DNA from: Saccharopolyspora sp. SCSIO 74807
GTDB lineage: Bacteria > Actinomycetota > Actinomycetes > Mycobacteriales > Pseudonocardiaceae
Length of the DNA stretch: 64,000 bases
NCBI RefSeq assembly: GCF_037023755.1
Contig: NZ_CP146100.1
Span: forward strand, 5,983,501-6,047,500
Direction: 5' to 3'
Shown here: piece by piece, positions 12,642 to 25,043 of the stretch
How positions within the stretch are numbered: position 1 is the first letter of the stretch
How the letters are laid out: each line of letters starts with the position of its first letter
The notes under the pieces: model-generated
Seen by the model: only the letters and a program-made list of their open reading frames with translations
The model's database searches: none
What the model was told of the DNA's origin: nothing
Program-made: the position numbers and the translations under genes

Positions 12642-13658
12642 TCACGACTCAGCCCGCAACAATCCCGTCCTGGAGTGGCAGCCCACGTATTCGAACCTCG
12701 TCCAGGACGGCTCCGCGACCGTGACCTCGTGGTACAGCCGCAATCTCGCCGCCTGCCCCATCGCGGCCAGGTACTTCAGCGCCGCCCGGAAGATGGCCAG
12801 GTGCGTCGGGTGGGATTCGGCCCAGGTTTCGAGGTGTCCGAGGCTGCGCCACCAGCTCAGGCCGAAGCTCTTGTCCGTCTCGCTGCCGTCCTCGGCTAGC
12901 ACCCGCGCGTACCGGTTCGCGTAGCAGCCGATCGCCAGGCCCTCGTCGCGGAGGAAGTCCATGCCCGCCCGGAGCGCGGGTTCGACCTCCTCGAGGTACA
13001 TCCGGCGTTCGTCGCCGTCGGTCTCGGTCCACTCCTGGCCCGAGCGGATCAGGCACACGTTGCTGTTCGGCACCACCGTGACGCGGTCGCCGTCGCGCCG
13101 GGCCGAGACCGTCCCGGAAGGCGCGAGCGGATCCGCCTGCGCCAGCGGCATCCGGTCGCGCGCACCGCCCCAGTACCCGTGCTCCCGGATCTCGCCGCTG
13201 AGCCCGGCACCGGCGACGGCGATGCCTTCCGGGCGATCATTGGAGAACAGCGTCTCGAACCGCCGCACGCTCGGTTGCACGACTTCCAGGAAGAACCCGG
13301 CCTGCTCGCTCGCCGGTCCCGCGGTCCAGAAGTCGTTGTCCGCCAGCCATGCGGAGTACTCCGCCGGGTCGGTCCAATACCGGATCTCCACCGTGGTGCG
13401 GTAGCCGGCCGCATCGACGTACCGGGCCCGCTCGCGATGCGCCGAAGCCGCCGTGCCTGCCAGCCGCGCCAGCGCGGACTCGGCCACCGCAGGCGGTTTC
13501 GCTCCGGAGTGCTGCACCCCGAAGTACGCCATGACGACCTGCTGCACCGACGGGTCGAACCGTGCCGAGAACGAAGGATACGGCGGTCGGAACGCGCCCG
13601 ACTTGCGCTCCGGCCGCGTCCGTTCGTCCGCCAAGTGCGGGGGGATCGCGGATTCCAT
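12642..13658 (-). CDS. heme-dependent aldoxime dehydratase family protein
   Basis: A 338-residue protein of the phenylacetaldoxime dehydratase (Oxd) family, which dehydrates aldoximes to nitriles in the cytoplasm using ferrous heme. The conserved block LGHLETWAESHPTHLAIF (about 273-290) carries the expected proximal heme histidine. LYHEV with His310 matches the distal catalytic histidine region, and IRSGQEW the conserved serine. Length fits the family (about 350). In known aldoxime-nitrile pathways these genes sit beside nitrile hydratase and amidase or nitrilase; none is present here. ATG 13658 is the first start and the N-terminus MESAIPPHLA looks native. Confidence 0.85.
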   Translation of the reverse strand: MESAIPPHLADERTRPERKSGAFRPPYPSFSARFDPSVQQVVMAYFGVQHSGAKPPAVAESALARLAGTAASAHRERARYVDAAGYRTTVEIRYWTDPAEYSAWLADNDFWTAGPASEQAGFFLEVVQPSVRRFETLFSNDRPEGIAVAGAGLSGEIREHGYWGGARDRMPLAQADPLAPSGTVSARRDGDRVTVVPNSNVCLIRSGQEWTETDGDERRMYLEEVEPALRAGMDFLRDEGLAIGCYANRYARVLAEDGSETDKSFGLSWWRSLGHLETWAESHPTHLAIFRAALKYLAAMGQAARLRLYHEVTVAEPSWTRFEYVGCHSRTGLLRAES

Positions 13659-16180: not shown

Positions 16181-17106
16181 ATGAGCCCGGTACTGCCGCT
16201 TTCCGACCTGGTCAGCGCACTGCGTCACGACGTGGTCCAAGTTTCGGTCAGCGGCGACGACACCGTGGCGGTGCGCGGGGTCGAACTGCTCGACCGGCAC
16301 GCGGGAGAAGCGGGCGGACCGGGGCACCTGCTGCTCGGCGTCGGCTTGAACACCGGCGATGCCGCGGAGAGCGATTCCGCCGTTCGCATCGCGAGCGATT
16401 CCCGGGGCGTCCTCGTGATCAAGGCCCGGGAGCGAGCACCTGCCGACTTCCTCGGCCGGGCACGGCGCGCTGGCGTCACGGTCGTGTCGATCGACGACCG
16501 CGTGCCGTGGAGCAGTGTCCAACGGCTGATGTCCACCCTGCTCGCAACGCACCCGGGCGGCGATGCCGCGCCCGCGGCAGGCGGTGATCTGTTCGTGCTG
16601 GCGAATTCGGCGGCCGCCGCGACCGGTGGCGCGATCGCGATCATGGACACCGGTCAGACGATCGTCGCCTACTCCAACCTGCCGGACCGCAGGCAGGTGC
16701 CGCAGGAAGCGCTGCCCGACCACCTCTCCGGCGAAGTGTGGCTCTCGGGCACCTTCGCGATTCCGGAGCGGCACCGCGGCACTACACGACCGACGAGCTG
16801 CGCGTGGAACTCGTCCACAAGCGACTCGTCGATTCCGTCCGCGCCGAGCCGCTGTTGCGCAGCGGGGACGGCGAGCGCATCACCGGCCACGACCGCGATC
16901 ATTCCACCGCGTTCGCCGCCACCCTGCGCTGCTACCTGCGGCGCTTCGGCGATGTCGGCGCCGCCAGCGCGGACCTGCACATCCACCAGAACACGCTGCG
17001 CCAGCGGCTCCGCCGCGCGCAGGAACTCTTCGCGCTCGACCTGGGCGACCCGGCGCAGCGGCTCGTGCTCGAACTCGAGTTGCACGCGGCAGCGGCCGAT
17101 CGCTGA
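16181..17106 (+). pseudogene. PucR/CdaR-type regulator remnant
   Basis: The 5' frame (from 16181) encodes a PucR-like N-terminal domain: LPLSDLVSALRHDVVQVSV through a segment resembling RAPADFLGRARRAGVTVVSI. At about 16770-16800 the reading frame shifts. The next frame gives the normal C-terminal HTH region, GHDRDHSTAFAATLRCYL and DLHIHQNTLRQRLRRAQELF, to the stop at 17106. The central region usual in this family (about 200 residues, often GGDEF-like) is missing between the two parts. Deletion plus frameshift makes this a pseudogene. It is divergent from the aldolase-transporter operon. Confidence 0.7.
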
Positions 17107-17151: not shown

Positions 17152-18357
17152 TCAGGCGAGCTGCTGGAGCAAATGGCCCATCCGGTCGCGTTTGGCGGCG
17201 AGGTAGCGGGTGTTGTGCTCGTTCGGCGCCACCTCGACCGGGATCCGTTCGCGCACGTCGATGCCGCATTCCAGGAGTGCGCGGCACTTGTCCGGGTTGT
17301 TGGTCAGCAGCCGCACCGATCCGACGCCGAGTTCGGCGAGCAGGCGGGCCGCCGGGACGTAGTCGCGGCTGTCGACCGGCAGCCCGAGCGCCCGGTTCGC
17401 CTCCAGCGTGTCCATGCCTTGGTACTGCTGGAGTTCGTAGGCGCGCAGCTTGTGCCCGAGGCCGATCCCCCGGCCTTCGTGCCCCCGCAAGTACACGACG
17501 ATGCCGCGCCCGGCGGCTGCGATCGACTCCATCGCCATGCGCAGCTGCGCGCCGCAGTCGCACCGCAGCGAGCCGAGCAGGTCGCCGGTGAGGCATTCGC
17601 TGTGCAGCCGCACGAGCACGTCCTCGCCGCCGACCTCGCCCATCGCCAGCGCGAGGTGCTCCACCCCGCCGGTCTCCCGGAAGGTGATCGCGCGGAATTC
17701 CCCGATATCGGTGGGAATCGAAGCCTGACCGGTGCGGCGGACACCTCGCCCGTCGCGCATCCAATCGACCAGCGCGGCGATCGAGATCATCGGGATGTCG
17801 TGCTCGGCGGCGAGCCCGTCCAGCTCCGGACGGCGCATCATCCGCTCGCGGTCGGGCGTGACGATCTCGCACAGCAGCGCCGCGCCGCTGAGCCCCGCCG
17901 CGCGGCACAGGTCGACTCCGGCCTCGGTGTGCCCGACCCGCTCCAGCACCCCGCCGGGCTTGGCGCGCAATGGCAGGACATGACCGGGCCGAGCCAGCTC
18001 GGCAGGCGCGAGCCGGGGGTCGGCGAGCGCGCGGATGGTCGCCGAGCGGTCGCCCGCGCTGATGCCCGTGCTCGTGCCGTGCCGGTAGTCGACGCTGACG
18101 AGGAACGCGGTGCCGTGGCTTTCGTCGCCCGCCGGGACCATGAGGTCCAGTTCGAGCTCGGCGGCCCGCCGCTCGTCGAGTGCCACGCACAGGAATCCCG
18201 AGGTGTGCTCCAGGAAGAAGGCGACCTCGGCGGTGCTCGCGTGCTCGGCGGCCATGATCAGGTCGCCTTCGTTCTCCCGGTCCTCGTCGTCGACGACCAG
18301 GACCTTTCCGCCTGCCGCGAGGGCGGCGAGGGCTTCGGCAATGCTCGAGCTGGGCAT
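17152..18357 (-). CDS. ribBA: bifunctional DHBP synthase / GTP cyclohydrolase II
   Basis: A 401-residue RibBA making both riboflavin precursors. The N-terminal half (about 1-200) is 3,4-dihydroxy-2-butanone 4-phosphate synthase with the acidic loop DDEDRENEGDLIMAA. The C-terminal half is GTP cyclohydrolase II with the zinc cysteines SECLTGDLLGSLRCDCG and the RGHEGRGIGL motif. Both active sites look complete. Unlike a housekeeping rib operon, no ribD, ribE or ribH is adjacent. It is instead divergent from a flavin amine oxidase and near a flavin reductase and FMN monooxygenase, suggesting an extra copy that feeds FMN to this cluster. ATG 18357 follows AGGAGAAG. An operator pair lies upstream and no FMN riboswitch is seen. 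Confidence 0.93.
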   Translation of the reverse strand: MPSSSIAEALAALAAGGKVLVVDDEDRENEGDLIMAAEHASTAEVAFFLEHTSGFLCVALDERRAAELELDLMVPAGDESHGTAFLVSVDYRHGTSTGISAGDRSATIRALADPRLAPAELARPGHVLPLRAKPGGVLERVGHTEAGVDLCRAAGLSGAALLCEIVTPDRERMMRRPELDGLAAEHDIPMISIAALVDWMRDGRGVRRTGQASIPTDIGEFRAITFRETGGVEHLALAMGEVGGEDVLVRLHSECLTGDLLGSLRCDCGAQLRMAMESIAAAGRGIVVYLRGHEGRGIGLGHKLRAYELQQYQGMDTLEANRALGLPVDSRDYVPAARLLAELGVGSVRLLTNNPDKCRALLECGIDVRERIPVEVAPNEHNTRYLAAKRDRMGHLLQQLA

Positions 18358-18447
18358 CGATCTTCTCCTGCACGCGCTTATCTCTCGGTGCGCGCACGCC
18401 GTCGGGCACGAGTGCGCGCTGAACCGTCGGACGACATACCGAGCAAG

Positions 18448-18466
18448 ACGTTCACTTAATGAACGT
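18448..18466. promoter_or_regulatory. candidate IclR operator, ribBA side
   Basis: ACGTTCA-CTTAA-TGAACGT is a perfect 7-bp inverted repeat with a 5-bp spacer, about 90 bp upstream of the ribBA start. Its core is GTTCA-N5-TGAAC. Confidence 0.7.
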
Positions 18467-18590
18467 TACGTTCACGGATAGTGGCACTGGTGCTGGACAT
18501 CGTCAAGGATTTCCCCATCGTCCCTACGAAAATCCACCCGCCGAGCCCCTTGACGACGTCGACGGGCGTGCCCACAATATCGGCCATAGT

Positions 18591-18617
18591 GTTCGTATAT
18601 TGAACGAACTGTTCGTT
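18591..18617. promoter_or_regulatory. candidate IclR operator, amine oxidase side
   Basis: GTTCG-TATAT-TGAAC at 18591-18605 matches the cluster motif with one change. It overlaps AACGAAC-T-GTTCGTT at 18603-18617, a perfect 7-bp palindrome, so two dimers might bind side by side. Confidence 0.6.
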
Positions 18618-18766
18618 GTCGAGTCATCCTGATCGTGCGCCGCCATCGCTCGTGCACCCGCTTCGTGCGGATCACCGGACCGGCCGGACGAGTTCGGCGC
18701 CAGCAGCAAGTCCCAGCCGGTCCGCAATCAGCCGGTCCCCGTAAGACTGCGAGGGAGTGCTCTCAC

Positions 18767-20131
18767 GTGACCGAGCAAGCAGACGTCGTAGTGGTCGGTG
18801 CCGGGATCGCCGGCCTGATCACCGCCCGCGAACTCGGCCGGAAAGGCCTGCGGGTCACCGTGCTCGAAGCCCGCGACCGCCTCGGCGGCCGCGTCTGGAC
18901 CGACCACCGGCTCGGCCGCGATCTGGAGATCGGCGGCACTTGGCTGCACTGGCTGCAGCCGCACGCGTGGTCCGAGGTCACCCGCTACGGCCTGGAGGTC
19001 ACCCGCGGGCCGCGTCCCGAGCAGGCCTACTGGCTGGCGGGCGACGAGGTCCGCACCGGCTCGCTGGACGGCTTCATGGAGCTGATCGACCCGGGGATGC
19101 GCGGGCTGCTGGACCAGACGATGCGCTGGATCCCGCGGCCGGATTCCCCGCTGTCCGCGGGGGAATTGGACTCCGTCGACGGTTTCAGCGTCCAGGACAA
19201 GCTCGACGAGCTGAACTTGCCGGTCGAGCAGTACCGCGCCAACGAAGCTGCCTGGGTGGGGCACTTCAACGCCCCGCTGCAAGACGGGGCGTTCACCAGC
19301 GCGCTGCGCTGGACCGCCGCGACGGGCGGTTCCTGGCACCTGATGCACGAGGCGTCGGCGGTGTTCCGGCTCGCGGCCGGTACCCGCCGGCTGGTCGAGT
19401 CGATCGCCGCCGACACCACCGCGGACATCCGCACTTCCACCGAAGTGCGCCGGATCGAGCACGACGCGCACGGCGCCGTGCTGACCACCGCCGCCGGAGA
19501 GCGGATCGACGCGCGCCGGGTGGTGCTGACGCTGCCGCAGAACATCCTCGGCGAACTCGACGTCTCGCCCGCGCTGAGCCGCGCGAAGCGCGCGGCGACC
19601 ACCGAGGGCACGGCGTCGAAGGGGGTGAAGGTCTGGATCCGCGTGCGCGGGCCGATCAAGCCGTTCTTCGCCTACTCATCGGCCGCGCACCCGCTTTCGG
19701 TCGTGCGCACCGAATTCCTCGGCGAGCACGACGCCGTGCTGGTGTCCTTCGGCGCCGACGCCGGCCGGATCTCCCCGCACGACATCGACGCCGTCCGCGC
19801 CGCGCTGCGCGTCTGGCGCGACGACCTGGAGGTCCTGGAAGTCACCGGACACGACTGGATGTCCGACCCGCATTCCCGGGAGACCTGGCTGATGCAGCAG
19901 CCCGGCCAGCTCACCCGGTACTTCGCCGAGCAGCAGCGCGCCGAAGGCGTCCTGCACTTCGCGAGCAGCGACGTCGCCAACGTGTGGGCCGGATTCATCG
20001 ACGGCGCCATCGAAAGCGGCACCCGCGTAGCGCGCGAAATCGACGCGAATTCTCTTAGAGAGGATTTGCGTAGCGGTGCCGGTAGCGGAACCTCAGCGGC
20101 TTCCTCGCTGCGGGATCGATTTCTGACGTAG
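18767..20131 (+). CDS. flavin-dependent amine oxidase
   Basis: A 454-residue flavin monoamine oxidase family protein. The FAD-binding Rossmann motif is VVVGAGIAGLITARELG near the N-terminus, followed by EARDRLGGRVWT and, near the C-terminus, ASSDVANVWAGFIDGAIESG, the family's final FAD contact. It oxidises an amine to an imine or aldehyde with release of peroxide and ammonia; the substrate is unknown. GTG 18767 follows GAGGGAG. After REIDAN the protein has an atypical tail of about 27 residues rich in Ser/Gly/Arg, translated from sequence that includes one arm of a repeat, so the 3' end may have been remodelled by that element. It heads a same-strand run with the flavin reductase and monooxygenase. 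Confidence 0.9.
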   Translation: MTEQADVVVVGAGIAGLITARELGRKGLRVTVLEARDRLGGRVWTDHRLGRDLEIGGTWLHWLQPHAWSEVTRYGLEVTRGPRPEQAYWLAGDEVRTGSLDGFMELIDPGMRGLLDQTMRWIPRPDSPLSAGELDSVDGFSVQDKLDELNLPVEQYRANEAAWVGHFNAPLQDGAFTSALRWTAATGGSWHLMHEASAVFRLAAGTRRLVESIAADTTADIRTSTEVRRIEHDAHGAVLTTAAGERIDARRVVLTLPQNILGELDVSPALSRAKRAATTEGTASKGVKVWIRVRGPIKPFFAYSSAAHPLSVVRTEFLGEHDAVLVSFGADAGRISPHDIDAVRAALRVWRDDLEVLEVTGHDWMSDPHSRETWLMQQPGQLTRYFAEQQRAEGVLHFASSDVANVWAGFIDGAIESGTRVAREIDANSLREDLRSGAGSGTSAASSLRDRFLT

Positions 20132-20176
20132 CACCCTACGCGGCGAAATCGCTGTCCTCGCGAGGAAGCCGCTGAG
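20092..20176. repeat. 17-bp perfect inverted repeat
   Basis: CTCAGCGGCTTCCTCGC at 20092-20108 is matched by its exact complement at 20160-20176, with 51 nt between. The left arm lies within the last codons of the amine oxidase and the right arm inside the dispersed element that follows. In RNA it would form a large stem-loop between the two genes. Confidence 0.8.
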
Positions 20177-20232
20177 AACCCGCGGCGGTGCCGGTTGCTT
20201 GCATGGTCGCTGCTCAGCGGCTTCGCCGCTGA
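20134..20232 (+). repeat. dispersed structured element, copy 1
   Basis: A 50-nt core (20134-20183), then 30 nt, then a hairpin TCAGCGGC-TTC-GCCGCTGA at 20214-20232. Copy 2 lies at 34805-34902 on the opposite strand with the same 50 + 30 + hairpin layout. By my count 40 of 50 core positions agree. Both copies sit between two genes read in the same direction as the element. Confidence 0.75.
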
Positions 20233-20299
20233 CAAGACAAAGACGAAAGATTGGCGAAACGATCTCTGGTTCCAGCAGCCTGGACTGGGAGGAACGCTC

Positions 20300-20803
20300 A
20301 TGACCTTGCCGTCTCCAACGATCGAGCCACGTCATTTCCGGGACGTCATGGGACATCTGCCCACCGGCGTCGTCGTCGTGGCCGGACGCGAACCCGCCAC
20401 CGGAAGTCCCGCCGGTCTCGTGGTCGGCACCTTCCAATCGCTGTCGCTGGATCCGCCGCTGGTCAGCTTCAGCGTCGCGACCACGTCGAGCAGCTGGCCG
20501 AAGATCCGCGCGGCCGGCTACTTCAGCGCCAGCGTGCTCGCCGACGGCCAGCACGACGTCTGCGGCGCGATGTCGAGCAAGCAGGGCGACAAGTTCGCCG
20601 CGGTGGACTGGCACGGATCCGCCGACGGCAACCCGCTGATCGCCGGGGCGCACGCCTGGATCGACTGCAGGACCGTGCAGGAGCTGGAAGGCGGCGACCA
20701 CGTGATCGTGCTCGCCGAAGTGCGCCGCCTGGACGCCGGTGGCGGCGAGCCGCTGGTGTTCCACCGCGGCCGGCTCGGCGGATACCGCGAGCTCCGAGTC
20801 TGA
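20300..20803 (+). CDS. NAD(P)H:flavin reductase (flavin reductase-like domain)
   Basis: A 167-residue flavin reductase of the HpaC/NtaB-like split-barrel type. RHFRDVMGHLPTGVVVVAG, then GTFQSLSLDPPLVSFSV and ASVLADGQHDV are the typical FMN-binding segments, and the C-terminal FHRGRLGGY is conserved. It supplies reduced FMN to a partner monooxygenase, here evidently the gene 138 bp downstream. ATG 20300 follows GGGAGGAA; the frame extends upstream into the repeat but that part is not protein-like. It is separated from the amine oxidase by the dispersed element. Confidence 0.92.
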   Translation: MTLPSPTIEPRHFRDVMGHLPTGVVVVAGREPATGSPAGLVVGTFQSLSLDPPLVSFSVATTSSSWPKIRAAGYFSASVLADGQHDVCGAMSSKQGDKFAAVDWHGSADGNPLIAGAHAWIDCRTVQELEGGDHVIVLAEVRRLDAGGGEPLVFHRGRLGGYRELRV

Positions 20804-20941
20804 TCACTGCGCTCGCCGATGGCGCCGCCAACATCGGCGCACCATCCACTGTGGACTTCGGGCCGCGGCCGCTCAGCGCGCGCGGCTGCCTCGCCGCACT
20901 AGACCACCTTTTCCCTTCACTTTCGGAAACAGGAGCAAACG

Positions 20942-22333
20942 ATGCCGTCTCGCCGCATCCGGCTGTTCGCCTTCGACTTCCAGGGCCCGGCACACCTCTC
21001 CGCGGGGCTGTGGCGGCACGACGACGACCAGGGCCACCGCTACGGCGACGTCCACTACTGGACGAAATACGCCGAGCTGCTGGAACAGGCCCGGTTCGAC
21101 GGGGTGTTCTTCGCCGACAACCTCGGCTACCACGACGTCTACCAGGGCAGCCCGGCAGGCGCGCTCGCCGACGGCGCGCAGCTGCCCGCCAACGACCCGT
21201 CCCTGGTCGTCTCGGCGATGGCCGCGGCCACCGAGCACCTCGGGTTCGGCCTGACCGGGTCCACCAGCTACGAGCACCCCTACGCGCTGGCCCGGAAGTT
21301 CAGCACCCTCGACCACCTCACCGACGGCCGCATCGGCTGGAACCTGGTGACCTCCTACGCCGGTAGCGCCGCGCGCAACCTCGGCAACGGGCAGCTGACC
21401 CCGCACGACGAGCGCTACGACGTGGCCGCCGAGCACCTCGAGGTCTGCTACAAGCTCTGGGAGAACTCCTGGGAGGACGGCGCCGTCGTCCGCGACAAGG
21501 ACCGCTGCACGTGGGCCGATCCGCAGCGCGTGCACGACATCGACCACCACGGCAAGTACTTCGACGTGCCCGGCTTCGCGCTCTGCGAACCCTCGCCGCA
21601 GCGCACCCCGGTGATCTTCCAGGCGGGCGGATCGTCGAAGGGCCGCGCGCTGGCCGCCGCGCACGCCGAGGGCGTGTTCGTCAACGCGCTGTCCAAGACC
21701 GCGCTCGAGCGGCAGGTCGAAGCGCTGCGCTCGCAGGCCGCCGAGGCCGGGCGGGATCCGGGATCGCTGCGGGTGCTGCAGATGCTCAACGTCGTCGTCG
21801 CCCCGACCGACGAGCAGGCGCACGCCAAGTACGAGCGGTACCGCAAGCTCGTGAGCTACTCCGGCGCGATGGCCCGCTACAGCGGCTGGACCGCGCTGGA
21901 CATGTCCCGGTTCGATCCGGACGTGCCGCTGCGGCACGTCAAGACCGACGCCGGGCAGACCATGGTCGACCTGTTCTCGCGGATGGACCCGGACAAGGAG
22001 TGGACCCCGCGCGACATCGCCGAATTCATCGGTATCGGCGGCAGCGGGCCCACCATCGTCGGCTCCCCGCAGACCGTGGCCGACGAGCTGATCAGCTGGG
22101 TCGAGCAGACCGGCATCGACGGCTTCAACCTCGGCCACGCGGTGAAGTACCAGGACATCGCCGATTTCGCCGAGCTCGTCGTGCCCGAGCTGCAGCGCCG
22201 CGAGGCGATGTGGACCGAGTACGAGGGCAAGACCCTGCGCGAAAAGCTGCACGGCCCCGGAACCGTGCGGCTGCGCGACGACCACCCAGGCAGCAAGCTC
22301 GCGCCCCGCCCGGCGGTCGCCGCCGGGCACTGA
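20942..22333 (+). CDS. FMNH2-dependent monooxygenase, NtaA/SnaA/DszA family
   Basis: A 463-residue bacterial-luciferase-fold monooxygenase. Typical features are the N-terminal FAFDFQGPAHLSAGLW, the residues HDVYQG, STSYEHPYALARKFSTLDHLTDGRIGWNLVTS, and GFNLGHAVKYQDIADF near the end. Relatives oxidise nitrilotriacetate, EDTA, dibenzothiophene sulfone, pristinamycin precursors or long-chain alkanes using FMNH2 and O2, so the substrate is not determined. The preceding flavin reductase is the natural FMNH2 source. ATG 20942 is supported by AGGAG about 10 nt upstream. A very strong stem-loop follows the stop. Confidence 0.93.
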   Translation: MPSRRIRLFAFDFQGPAHLSAGLWRHDDDQGHRYGDVHYWTKYAELLEQARFDGVFFADNLGYHDVYQGSPAGALADGAQLPANDPSLVVSAMAAATEHLGFGLTGSTSYEHPYALARKFSTLDHLTDGRIGWNLVTSYAGSAARNLGNGQLTPHDERYDVAAEHLEVCYKLWENSWEDGAVVRDKDRCTWADPQRVHDIDHHGKYFDVPGFALCEPSPQRTPVIFQAGGSSKGRALAAAHAEGVFVNALSKTALERQVEALRSQAAEAGRDPGSLRVLQMLNVVVAPTDEQAHAKYERYRKLVSYSGAMARYSGWTALDMSRFDPDVPLRHVKTDAGQTMVDLFSRMDPDKEWTPRDIAEFIGIGGSGPTIVGSPQTVADELISWVEQTGIDGFNLGHAVKYQDIADFAELVVPELQRREAMWTEYEGKTLREKLHGPGTVRLRDDHPGSKLAPRPAVAAGH

Positions 22334-22352
22334 TCGCGAGCGCTCACCGTTC

Positions 22353-22390
22353 CGGGAAGGTGGCGCCCGGCACCGGGCGCCACCTTCCCG
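22353..22390. terminator. bidirectional terminator hairpin
   Basis: A perfect 18-bp stem (arms 22353-22370 and 22373-22390, sequence CGGGAAGGTGGCGCCCGG and its complement) lies between the stop codons of the converging monooxygenase and MFS genes. It has no U-rich tail, as is common in high-GC actinobacteria, and should stop transcription from both sides. Confidence 0.85.
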
Positions 22391-22393
22391 CGG

Positions 22394-23719
22394 CTACTGC
22401 TGTTCCGTGGAGATCTCGCCCAGCGTGCGCCCGGTCGTTTCCGGAGCCAGCACCTGCGAGACCAGCGCACCGGCGACGCAGACCCCGGCGGCGATGAGCA
22501 TCGTCGCCGCGCCGCCGAGGTCCTGCATGGACCACGGGAACAGGAACGTGCCGATCGCCGCGCCGACGCGGCTGACCGCCGTCGCGAAGCCGGTTCCGAT
22601 CCCGCGGACTTCGGTCGGGAGCACTTCGCCCGGATACACGCCGGTGAGCGCGGTGCACATCGCATTGGCGAACGCGAAGACCAAGAAGCAGCCCAGCACG
22701 ATCGTCGGCGGCGCCGACGCCCACAGCGCGATGACCACCAGCACGACCGCGCACACCCACTGCTGCGGGATCGTCAGCTTGCGGCGCCCGATGCGCTCGA
22801 TGAGCAGGCACGAAACGACGACACCGGCCAGCGCGACACCGTTGACCCCGATGGCGCCGACCAGGCCGTCCTCGCCGAGACCGTACTGCTCCAGCACGCT
22901 GGCCGAGAACGTCGCGATGGCGAAGTACGGCGTCACGGTGCAGAACCAGAAGATCGAGATGAACGCCGTCGCGCGCCAGTGCTGCGCCGAGAACAGCATC
23001 CCGAACGTGCCGCGGCGCTGCTGCTCGGTGGTGATGTCGGAGCGATCCTCGATCCAGGTGTCGGCGATCTGCTCGGCTTCGGCGACGCGTCCCTTGTTCA
23101 TCAGCCAGCGCGGTGACTCCGGCAGGCCCAGCCTGCCGAAGAGCAAGATCACCGCGGGCACCGTGCTGGTGCCGAGCACGATCCGCCAGTCGGCGCCGAA
23201 CGAGGTCGTGAGCACCCAGCCCACGACGAAGGCCACGACGAACCCGACGTACCAGGCGACTTCGGCGAACGACAGGCACCGGCCGCGCAGCCGCGCGGGC
23301 GCGAACTCGGCCATCAGCGGCCAGCCGATGGAGTACTCCGCGCCGATCGCGACGCCCATCAGCAGCCGCACCACGAACAGCTGCCAGCTCGAGTCGACGA
23401 AGAACTGCAGCACCGAGCAGGCCACGAACATGGCCAGGTCGAGGGTGAACATCGGTTTGCGGCCGAACTTGTCCGCGAGCCAGCCGCCCAGCGGACCGCC
23501 CGCGAAGATGCCGATCAGCGCGGCCGCACCGATCAGCCCCTCGCCGTACACCGACATGTTCAGGTCGGTGGTGATCGCGCTGATCACGGTGCCGACGATG
23601 CCGAGGATGTAGCCGTCGATGAACATGCCGCCCGCTACGACGACGGTCAGCCGGATCAGGAACCGTCTCCTGTCCGGCTGGCTGCGCGCGGTGTCCGCGA
23701 CTGCGTTGGTTGTGGTCAC
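22394..23719 (-). CDS. MFS transporter of the sugar/aromatic-acid type
   Basis: A 441-residue twelve-helix major facilitator. Motif A appears as GWLADKFGRKPMF, a second copy as LLIERIGRRKLT, and the helix 6-7 loop carries LPESPRWLMNKGR; it ends with the TTGRTLGEI signature. It probably imports the substrate of the flavin cluster. GTG 23719 is chosen over an upstream ATG because GGGAAGGAA lies about 8 nt before it. It is divergent from an IclR regulator, with shared GTTCA-N5-TGAAC sites between them. Confidence 0.88.
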   Translation of the reverse strand: MTTTNAVADTARSQPDRRRFLIRLTVVVAGGMFIDGYILGIVGTVISAITTDLNMSVYGEGLIGAAALIGIFAGGPLGGWLADKFGRKPMFTLDLAMFVACSVLQFFVDSSWQLFVVRLLMGVAIGAEYSIGWPLMAEFAPARLRGRCLSFAEVAWYVGFVVAFVVGWVLTTSFGADWRIVLGTSTVPAVILLFGRLGLPESPRWLMNKGRVAEAEQIADTWIEDRSDITTEQQRRGTFGMLFSAQHWRATAFISIFWFCTVTPYFAIATFSASVLEQYGLGEDGLVGAIGVNGVALAGVVVSCLLIERIGRRKLTIPQQWVCAVVLVVIALWASAPPTIVLGCFLVFAFANAMCTALTGVYPGEVLPTEVRGIGTGFATAVSRVGAAIGTFLFPWSMQDLGGAATMLIAAGVCVAGALVSQVLAPETTGRTLGEISTEQQ

Positions 23720-23853
23720 CAGCTGGTTCCTTCCCTGGTGAAACGCCCGCGGGATGGCCGCGCCCCCTGTACCGGTCCCGGGCGGGAGATGCTTGTGCTG
23801 TGCCGTCACACGGTGCCGACCGCCCCGCGCCGGGAACTCAACCGGGTGTGAAA

Positions 23854-23868
23854 GTTCATCATGTGAAC
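23854..23868. promoter_or_regulatory. candidate IclR operator, MFS side
   Basis: GTTCA-N5-TGAAC, perfect 5-bp arms, about 135 bp upstream of the MFS start. It has the same arms and spacer as the ribBA site at 18450-18464. Confidence 0.65.
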
Positions 23869-24162
23869 AGAGCGACCGAGAAAGCGCCAGGGATCATGTA
23901 TCGACCTCAAGCGTTCAAACCTGCTTCGATGCATTGACTAGAGCCGATCGCCACGGCACGCTTGGCCCGTTTCCAAACAGAACGTTCACTAACTAAACCG
24001 CCATGTGGAGGTTCCGAAACAACCAGCGCCGCTGGACAGGACCGCGCGAGCGGAGCTGTGCCCGCTCGTGCACGAGCTGTGCACGCGGCCGAACCGACGT
24101 CGCCCCTACCTCGGCCGAACACCGCTTCGCGGCCGCCTCGGACCGGCGACGCGGGACATCGC

Positions 24163-24177
24163 GTCCACTTTGTGAAC
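24163..24177. promoter_or_regulatory. candidate IclR operator, autoregulatory
   Basis: GTCCA-N5-TGAAC, one base from the consensus, 71 bp upstream of the IclR start, a usual place for autoregulation. Confidence 0.55.
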
Positions 24178-24248
24178 GCCCCTGTTAAACTGTTCTGCGC
24201 ACCGGAGGTCCAGGGCTGCGGCCCGAACCAGCAGGAGGCGGGAACGCG

Positions 24249-25043
24249 ATGGGCGACGCGCCCGAGCCGACCGAGATGGCCAACAAGTCGGTGACCAAGG
24301 CCGTCAGCTTGCTCCGCGAACTGGCCGCCCAACCGCGCACCGGCGCCACCGCCACCACGCTCGCGAAAGCCGCGGGGCTGAGCAGGCCGACCGCTTTCCG
24401 GCTGCTCCACAGCCTGGAAAAGGGCGGGCTCGTCGACCGCGTGGACACCAACTACGTCCTCGGCTGGGAACTCGCCCGCCTCGGCCGCCGCGCCGACCCG
24501 TACGCCGGTCTCGTCGCGCACGCGCAGCCGCTGCTGCAGGAACTGGCGGACAACTTCAACGAGTCCGTGACGCTGTCGGTCCCCAACTCGCAGGACGGGC
24601 TCGACCTGGTCGCCGAGGCCGCGGGCTCGCACGTCGTCGGCGTGCTGGCCCGCAACCTGGTCGGCCAGCACTACCCCATGCACGCCAGCTCCACCGGCAA
24701 AGTACTGCTGGCCGAGAAGCCGATCGAGACGCTGCGCCGGACCATCCCCGACGAGCTCGAAGCGTTCACCGAGCACACCATCACCGACCGCGAAGCGCTG
24801 CTCAAGGAACTCGAGCAGGTCTACGAGCAGGGCTTCGCCATCATCGACAACGAGCTCGAGCCCGAGCTCCTGTCGGTGTCCAGCCCGATCCGGGACAGCG
24901 CGGGCACCCTGCTGGCGATCCTCACCCTCAACGGGCCGCGGAACCGCTTCGGCCGCGCACGCATCCCCGAGGCCCTGCAGCAGATGCAGAACACCGTCAG
25001 CGGCCTCACCCAGATGTTCTGGCGTGATTCGACGACCGCTTGA
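24249..25043 (+). CDS. IclR-family transcriptional regulator
   Basis: A 264-residue IclR protein: winged HTH at about residues 12-70 (TTLAKAAGLSRPTAFRLLHSL) and the IclR effector domain after it, with MHASSTGKVLLA and FAIIDNELEPELLSVSSPI. It binds DNA as a dimer or tetramer and responds to a small pathway intermediate. ATG 24249 is used; GCAGGAGGCGG precedes it. It is divergent from the MFS gene, and the inverted repeats upstream, repeated near ribBA and the amine oxidase, point to it as regulator of the whole block. Confidence 0.92.
   Translation: MGDAPEPTEMANKSVTKAVSLLRELAAQPRTGATATTLAKAAGLSRPTAFRLLHSLEKGGLVDRVDTNYVLGWELARLGRRADPYAGLVAHAQPLLQELADNFNESVTLSVPNSQDGLDLVAEAAGSHVVGVLARNLVGQHYPMHASSTGKVLLAEKPIETLRRTIPDELEAFTEHTITDREALLKELEQVYEQGFAIIDNELEPELLSVSSPIRDSAGTLLAILTLNGPRNRFGRARIPEALQQMQNTVSGLTQMFWRDSTTA

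Follow-up and report, generated by a model that had tools for sequence, protein, structure and literature searches.

A ribBA gene within a conserved block of predicted flavin-dependent oxidation genes in Saccharopolyspora sp. SCSIO 74807 and its relatives

The closest described counterparts of a ribBA gene that stands among flavin-dependent oxidation genes are the lux-rib operon of Photobacterium, the ipp cluster of Rhodococcus sp. D-6 and a central pathway of two other rhodococci. Here they are compared with a gene block spanning positions 17152-25043 of a 64,000-nucleotide stretch of DNA (the window) from Saccharopolyspora sp. SCSIO 74807, whose genome of 6.69 Mb forms a single contig. The block is conserved in related genomes, its genes share an upstream palindrome, and it probably represents a catabolic regulon with its own flavin supply.

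In the lux-rib operon, according to the relevant passage of PMC10049116 (citing Lee 1994), riboflavin-synthesis genes stand beside those of the luciferase dependent on reduced flavin mononucleotide (FMNH2) and of the flavin reductase LuxG. The block likewise has a rib gene beside a flavin reductase and a luciferase-like family enzyme (PF00296). However, lux-rib links ribE, ribB, ribH and ribA to light emission in that passage, whereas the block has ribBA only, appears catabolic, occurs in actinomycetes, and carries a conserved palindrome and an amine oxidase gene; the lux-rib-type set of ribE, ribB, ribH, ribA and luciferase genes is not found in it. In the ipp cluster a RibB gene lies between two-component monooxygenase genes and is induced (log2 4.46), as described in part of PMC12442392, the main text of which lacks the word ‘riboflavin’ by a term count. 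The location between oxygenase and reductase genes, and the induction together with them, parallel what is proposed for the block, but ipp has a Group D oxygenase acting on 2-isopropylphenol and a RibB of 214 aa. One figure of PMC6498646 assigns RibBA, an NADH-FMN oxidoreductase and an acyl-CoA-dehydrogenase-type enzyme to an unnamed central pathway of R. jostii RHA1/R. ruber Chol-4; unlike the block, the pathway is listed with an extradiol dioxygenase, and the passage names no luciferase-like monooxygenase (LLM) or amine oxidase. The initial annotation of the window knew of no described pathway with the gene set of the block, and none was found in the open-licence papers searched, although flavin-synthesis genes beside flavin-dependent oxygenases are already on record in lux-rib and ipp (the latter in part of PMC12442392). 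Those papers yielded no statement of a general association between ribBA and monooxygenases, and nothing usable on a pyridine ring-opening analogy.

The block consists of the following genes, all of which had been named in the initial annotation and were recovered at their places as open reading frames (ORFs) with matching domain profiles:

17152-18357 (-): ribBA (PF00926, 250 bits; PF00925, 209 bits)
18767..20131 (+): flavin-containing amine oxidase of the Pnao/NicA2/6-hydroxynicotine-oxidase-like branch (PF01593, 177 bits)
20297..20803 (+): short-chain NAD(P)H:flavin reductase (PF01613, 132 bits)
20942..22333 (+): predicted FMNH2-dependent LLM of the NtaA/DmoA family (TIGR03860, 527.6 bits)
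22394..23809 (-): major facilitator superfamily (MFS) transporter, Sugar_tr (PF00083, 225 bits)
24249..25043 (+): IclR-family regulator, the probable block regulator (PF01614 and PF09339, above cut-off)

The amine oxidase ORF opens at 18635, and homologues favour the start at 18767; that of the flavin reductase covers 20195-20803(+), with a likely start at about 20297.

Conserved linkage of ribBA with the block genes

The RibBA domain models score above their cut-offs (TIGR00506, 207.1 against 177.45; TIGR00505, 226.7 against 205.85), while the full-length equivalog model PRK09311 scores below (541.8 bits against 569), and the protein is best classified as a divergent, accessory member of the bifunctional RibBA family. 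Alignment to the solved RibBA 4i14 showed that the zinc cysteines and active-site positions are intact. In the 17 block-type RibBA rows, representing 16 distinct sequences, 22 of 23 positions to which we assign presumed catalytic, binding or zinc roles are identical in 17/17 and the remaining one in 16/17. Both domains are present, in line with the complete RibBA first proposed. It is the sole rib gene among the annotated neighbours in the window, and riboflavin synthase and lumazine synthase (ribE/ribH) had no match within 6 kb of six related block copies (L132, L136, L131, L123, L124 and L211), which agrees with the isolation of ribBA from other riboflavin genes noted earlier. Nor is this ribBA the only one in the genome: there are two genes for dihydroxybutanone phosphate (DHBP) synthase, and the other copy, located elsewhere, is 54% identical to that of the block. 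Control by a flavin mononucleotide (FMN) riboswitch was rejected, as no Rfam family matched in the window or in seven loci including the other rib locus of the genome.

The block monooxygenase is 100% identical to its counterpart in Saccharopolyspora sp. HNM0986. A scan with this enzyme gave 80 loci, of which ten contain ribBA in the compared stretch (L003-L009, L011, L012 and L014), all with monooxygenase identities of at least 77%; none of the 69 loci with identities of 62% or less has the gene, and no copy is seen in L010 (77%), for which a shorter stretch was compared. Among 249 family genomes, 14, the host included, have an uninterrupted ribBA with 71% identity or more to the block copy, and in 14/14 the amine oxidase and/or monooxygenase gene lies within about 1.5 kb of it. 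The linkage is far above chance: coincidence was rejected on these 14/14 neighbours, and on the operator statistics and the comparison of accessory with housekeeping copies given below.

Altogether 17 loci from Saccharopolyspora, Amycolatopsis, Thermocrispum, Geodermatophilus, Rhodococcus and other genera were compared, with identity thresholds chosen gene by gene. Genes of ribBA and the flavin reductase were found in 17, of the monooxygenase and the amine oxidase in 16 each, of an aldehyde dehydrogenase in 12, of IclR in 11 (within the compared stretch), of a hydratase in ten and of the MFS transporter in eight. In the 17th locus, L131, the monooxygenase lies about 15 kb from ribBA. Five further loci have IclR nearby, namely L130, L132, L131 (seen in L248, L249 and L250) and those of two Rhodococcus genomes, where the matches fall just outside the compared stretch. 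Gene order and strand differ among the loci, showing that the linkage has outlived rearrangement; conserved synteny of the kind called for in the initial annotation is thus present in related genomes.

The amine oxidase belongs to the PF01593 family, and its best solved relatives are 8eef, 7u6l and 7e7h (Pnao), then 7c49 and 5ttj, 6cr0. Among those identified, all amine oxidases of nicotine pathways, Pnao is the closest, NicA2 and 6-hydroxynicotine oxidase being further off, and the distance is too great for a substrate to be named from them. No nicotine gene is named among the block neighbours, and the nicotine pathway is not known to include ribBA or LLM. The genome has three PF01613 matches, among them the flavin reductase of the block, which scores 145 bits with the HsaB model, under its cut-off of 230. 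The monooxygenase exceeds the TIGR03860 cut-off of 279.7 bits, and its gene begins 138 bp after the end of the reductase gene. Its best solved relatives are dimethyl-sulfide monooxygenase 6ak1 (478 bits), alkane monooxygenase 3b9n (425 bits), riboflavin lyase 5w48 (320 bits) and 6lr1. The two proteins may form a two-component monooxygenase in which the partner reductase supplies FMNH2.

Only flavin enzymes and a flavin-synthesis enzyme had been recognised among the catalytic products of the block. Relatives, however, carry a non-flavin aldehyde dehydrogenase (12/17) and an HpaH/MhpD-like hydratase (10/17), so that flavin enzymes do not make up the whole pathway. The aldehyde dehydrogenase most resembles 3v4c and 1eyy, the latter presumably the fatty aldehyde dehydrogenase of Vibrio harveyi, and the hydratase scores under the cut-offs of the HpaH and MhpD models. 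Four loci add a zinc dehydrogenase gene and an enolase-superfamily gene, for which the best NCBIfam model is cis-3-hydroxy-L-proline dehydratase, under cut-off.

Several genes lie beside particular versions of the block. The Rhodococcus versions L007 and L009 are accompanied by a PucR pair, an old-yellow-enzyme-type reductase and a RidA-family protein. In the window, a PucR-type regulator gene (16181-17106) has its N-terminal part, recognised by eye, and its helix-turn-helix part (HTH_30) in different frames and looks frameshifted; the latter part is 100% identical in L012. A haem aldoxime dehydratase gene (12642-13658; PF13816; OxdA model 340 bits, below the cut-off of 600) adjoins MFS and class II aldolase genes and, among the loci of the monooxygenase scan, occurs outside the window only in L012. 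The aldoxime dehydratase, class II aldolase and PucR-type genes were rejected as block members, since among the 17 loci the window alone has them; all are also present in L012, which is of the same species. When plasmids were searched with the LLM and the amine oxidase, all copies recovered were less than 60% identical, and the one plasmid amine-oxidase context inspected (H87) has neither ribBA nor LLM.

A palindrome shared by ribBA and its neighbours

The palindrome GTTCA-N5-TGAAC was found from dyads in the upstream regions of the 17 loci. In 328 kb of these loci it occurs 27 times in perfect form and 56 times with at most one mismatch, against means of 0.1 and 3.15 in 20 simulations of first-order random sequence. 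All but two of the 56 near-perfect sites (54) fall no more than 420 bp upstream of a block gene, and across the loci these stand before ribBA and the genes of the amine oxidase, monooxygenase and transporter, as well as before iclR itself. None of the 17 loci lacks a near-perfect site. A site directly precedes ribBA in 14 loci; in L005, L007 and L009 it stands ahead of the MFS gene, which is followed by ribBA in the same orientation. In ten loci the region separating ribBA from the gene divergent to it holds a pair of sites 138-144 bp apart. The presence of one palindrome upstream of both ribBA and the pathway genes makes it very probable that they are co-regulated. The window contains the following elements:

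18450..18464 (no strand): putative operator, perfect, ribBA/amine oxidase intergenic region
18550..18578 (+): promoter-like match oriented towards the amine oxidase gene (one match, against a chance expectation of 0.4)
18591..18605 (no strand): second putative operator, one mismatch, 141 bp from the first and just downstream of the promoter-like match
23854..23868 (no strand): putative operator, perfect, MFS/iclR intergenic region
23984..23998 (no strand): putative operator, one mismatch, MFS/iclR intergenic region
24163..24177 (no strand): putative operator, one mismatch, about 79 bp before iclR

The promoter-like match is thus situated between the putative operators at 18450 and 18591. Allowing two mismatches gives 23 matches in the window, where 12 would be expected.

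The genome of the host contains four perfect sites, two of them in the block (P ~8e-6 for random spread), a count that is partly circular because the motif was derived from upstream regions that include those of the window. The other two, one at a gene junction and one before a RibD_C-domain gene, have GC-rich spacers and were set aside as probable chance occurrences. The RibD_C-domain gene (PF01872; L255:3004-3743, about 5375004-5375743 of the genome) has its site 51 bp upstream. No site with one mismatch or fewer was detected in 19 kb around the other rib locus of the genome (L141). In 13 block-bearing genomes the palindrome occurs 45 times against eight for the reversed pattern, and 19 of the 45 are placed in parts of the block. 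Perfect sites are present in 38 of 247 collected loci, comprising 37 copies of block loci, often overlapping, and the related L209. Where the block is split, as in three genomes, a site precedes the displaced iclR/MFS or monooxygenase genes, and two Rhodococcus genomes have a perfect site about 75 bp before their best iclR match.

The L209 cluster combines matches to the amine oxidase, IclR, flavin reductase and LLM with a RibBA-like copy that has diverged (276 bits) and a perfect copy of the palindrome. Double GTTCA palindromes also occur between divergent HxlR-like regulator and MFS-like transporter genes, families judged by eye, in L252 (5137-5189) and L253 (5253-5305), apparently in another regulon.

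Accessory and housekeeping ribBA copies

Five plasmid ribBA contexts (H26, H27, H30, H32 and H76), picked by name among 60 listed of 106 records, with the Rhizobium records, the largest group, left out, have a flavin reductase gene within 6 kb in 5/5 cases and an annotated LLM gene in 4/5. As these contexts suggested a pattern, full-length ribBA places were counted in 28 family genomes, a non-random choice, being the first in handle order (G137, of the same genus, leading) of 44 with at least four RibBA-like matches. The 64 full-length or near-full-length places, some truncated by contig ends, include a split copy in G137, while a copy in G130 (C2, aligned residues 5-369) was assigned to the partial set. 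With ribE or ribH within 3 kb taken to define housekeeping copies, 28 places are housekeeping and 36 accessory.

A flavin reductase gene is located within 3 kb of 28/36 accessory but 0/28 housekeeping copies (Fisher P 5e-11); as the latter represent one conserved locus rather than 28 independent draws, the expectation near a random place, about 0.9%, is used for comparison instead. A reductase together with an LLM or a match to the acyl-CoA dehydrogenase (ACAD) profile within 6 kb accompanies 26/36 accessory against 0/28 housekeeping copies; this profile was seeded with ordinary acyl-CoA dehydrogenase annotations, and an ACAD neighbour need not be a monooxygenase. For LLM alone within 6 kb the counts are 27/36 and 2/28. 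After removal of seven block-type or related copies, a flavin reductase still stands beside 21 of 29 accessory copies. Outside the family, 17 genomes that each have at least two long copies provided 35 places, and it is near 11/18 accessory and 0/17 housekeeping copies there (P 1e-4).

For partial copies the counts draw on 150 of 269 flavin-reductase matches and are lower bounds: a reductase is near at least 16 of 45 RibB-containing copies, and within 3 kb of at least eight of 27 RibB-only copies, against at least one of 37 RibA-only copies (0/36 before G052 was added). In all, 81 partial rows were counted; five further rows include the RibA-only copy of G052, which lies 960 bp from a reductase with a RibB fragment beside it. 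Some family genomes have up to eight or nine RibBA-like matches, RibA-only and RibB-only copies among them.

A tree of RibBA was built from 87 rows, 83 of them different, with one short split row left out. A branch of 34 rows supported at 100/100 holds all 28 housekeeping copies, the other copy of the host genome (L001), L128, L140 and three accessory copies (L186, L194 and L210), and the other 53 rows are accessory copies or are unassigned. Block-type copies group together in a set of 17 rows at 99/97, in which L006 and L136 are identical; L004 falls outside it. Because of several long branches, individual placements in the tree are uncertain, and one join drew a warning from the program. Accessory copies thus appear mostly to form a lineage apart from housekeeping RibBA.

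Flavin supply on demand and rival explanations

The block is probably a catabolic regulon that is induced by its substrate and has its own source of flavin, furnishing flavin on demand to a two-component monooxygenase pathway. Both riboflavin branches begin with a step catalysed by RibBA, so that a single gene could raise flavin output; the block enzymes are predicted to consume flavin adenine dinucleotide (FAD) and free FMNH2, which suggests flavin supply on demand. In the proposed scheme, the IclR-type regulator would bind the palindromes upstream of its own gene, of ribBA, of the transporter gene and of the amine oxidase operon, and in relatives those upstream of the monooxygenase gene. On entry of the substrate it would release or activate these promoters. 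The amine oxidase and the reductase/LLM pair would then oxidise the substrate, and in relatives the aldehyde dehydrogenase and the 2-oxo-alkenoate-hydratase-like enzyme may carry the route further, while RibBA would raise flavin output to serve the enzymes that use FAD and free FMN, independently of the control exerted on the housekeeping rib operon. The substrate is probably an amine or N-heterocyclic compound, an amine being plausible in view of the amine oxidase. Overall, the initial interpretation is partly supported: its core, that flavin synthesis is wired to flavin-consuming oxidation, agrees with the conserved linkage, the second ribBA and the shared palindrome. Two of the outcomes named at the outset as refuting it, missing linkage in related genomes and a single genomic ribBA, do not apply.

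Several observations weigh against this scheme. A flavin reductase is lacking within 3 kb of 8/36 accessory copies, and 5/36 have no reductase, LLM or ACAD match within 6 kb; outside the family 4/18 have no such neighbour. The occurrence of RibB-only copies near reductases implies that GTP cyclohydrolase II need not belong to the logic. In the host genome the reversed pattern occurs three times against four for the palindrome, so the total is not high in itself, and 26 of the 45 palindromes in the 13 block-bearing genomes are unexplained. The assignment of IclR as the palindrome-binding protein is suggested by linkage. Among the loci, L124, from an incomplete genome, has one-mismatch sites only and no IclR match at E 1e-30, and in L004 ribBA is broken across two frames. 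Finally, the window block has no aldehyde dehydrogenase or hydratase gene, the homologues in the genome being distant (46% and 34%) and located elsewhere; its route may therefore differ from that of its relatives.

A general flavin boost, serving stress, iron or secretion and hitchhiking in a catabolic island, would agree with the accessory copies that have no monooxygenase neighbour and with the iron-reduction roles of RibBA elsewhere described in part of PMC6041382, but it is unlikely given that one operator is common to ribBA and the pathway genes despite their shuffled order, that the association is specifically with flavin reductases, and that the block copies descend as one set. The recurrence of RibB-only copies near flavin reductases (the eight or more of 27 noted above) could also mean that RibB or RibBA provides the block with a metabolite, such as dihydroxybutanone phosphate, formate or a pyrimidine, instead of flavin. 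This is quite improbable: no consumer of such a product is apparent among the conserved block genes, and the factor common to the various contexts is a flavin reductase with a flavin oxygenase.

Many actinobacterial LLM enzymes use coenzyme F420, the precursor of which comes from the riboflavin route, and the block RibBA might accordingly serve F420 or another product derived from this route, with the LLM using F420H2 rather than FMNH2. There is little likelihood of this, since the LLM falls well over the cut-off of the FMN-dependent NtaA/DmoA subfamily and a flavin reductase adjoins it; furthermore, F420 is not known to require a RibB product, yet RibB-containing partial copies lie near reductases far more often than RibA-only ones. 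That the block degrades flavin, its LLM being a riboflavin lyase like RcaE, is highly improbable. A lyase does figure among the solved relatives of the LLM, but dimethyl-sulfide and alkane monooxygenases are closer, and on this ground lyase identity was rejected; moreover, it would be futile for a single regulon both to produce riboflavin and to break it down, and the amine oxidase would have no role.

Flavin supply on demand may extend beyond this block. It is an even question whether a large Mycobacteriales lineage of RibB(A), for the most part separate from housekeeping RibBA, serves specifically as an accessory to operons for two-component flavin monooxygenases, each of them keeping its own flavin-precursor gene under the regulator of its substrate and not under general flavin control, so that flavin synthesis would be split into pathway-specific modules. 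If so, cofactor supply would limit free-flavin monooxygenases enough for a flavin-precursor gene to have been attached repeatedly to their operons, which would help to explain the multiplicity of RibBA-like matches in some big-genome actinomycetes. Accessory ribBA could then serve as a marker for unrecognised monooxygenase pathways and would suggest the addition of RibBA when such pathways are engineered, and the palindrome makes the regulon directly testable.

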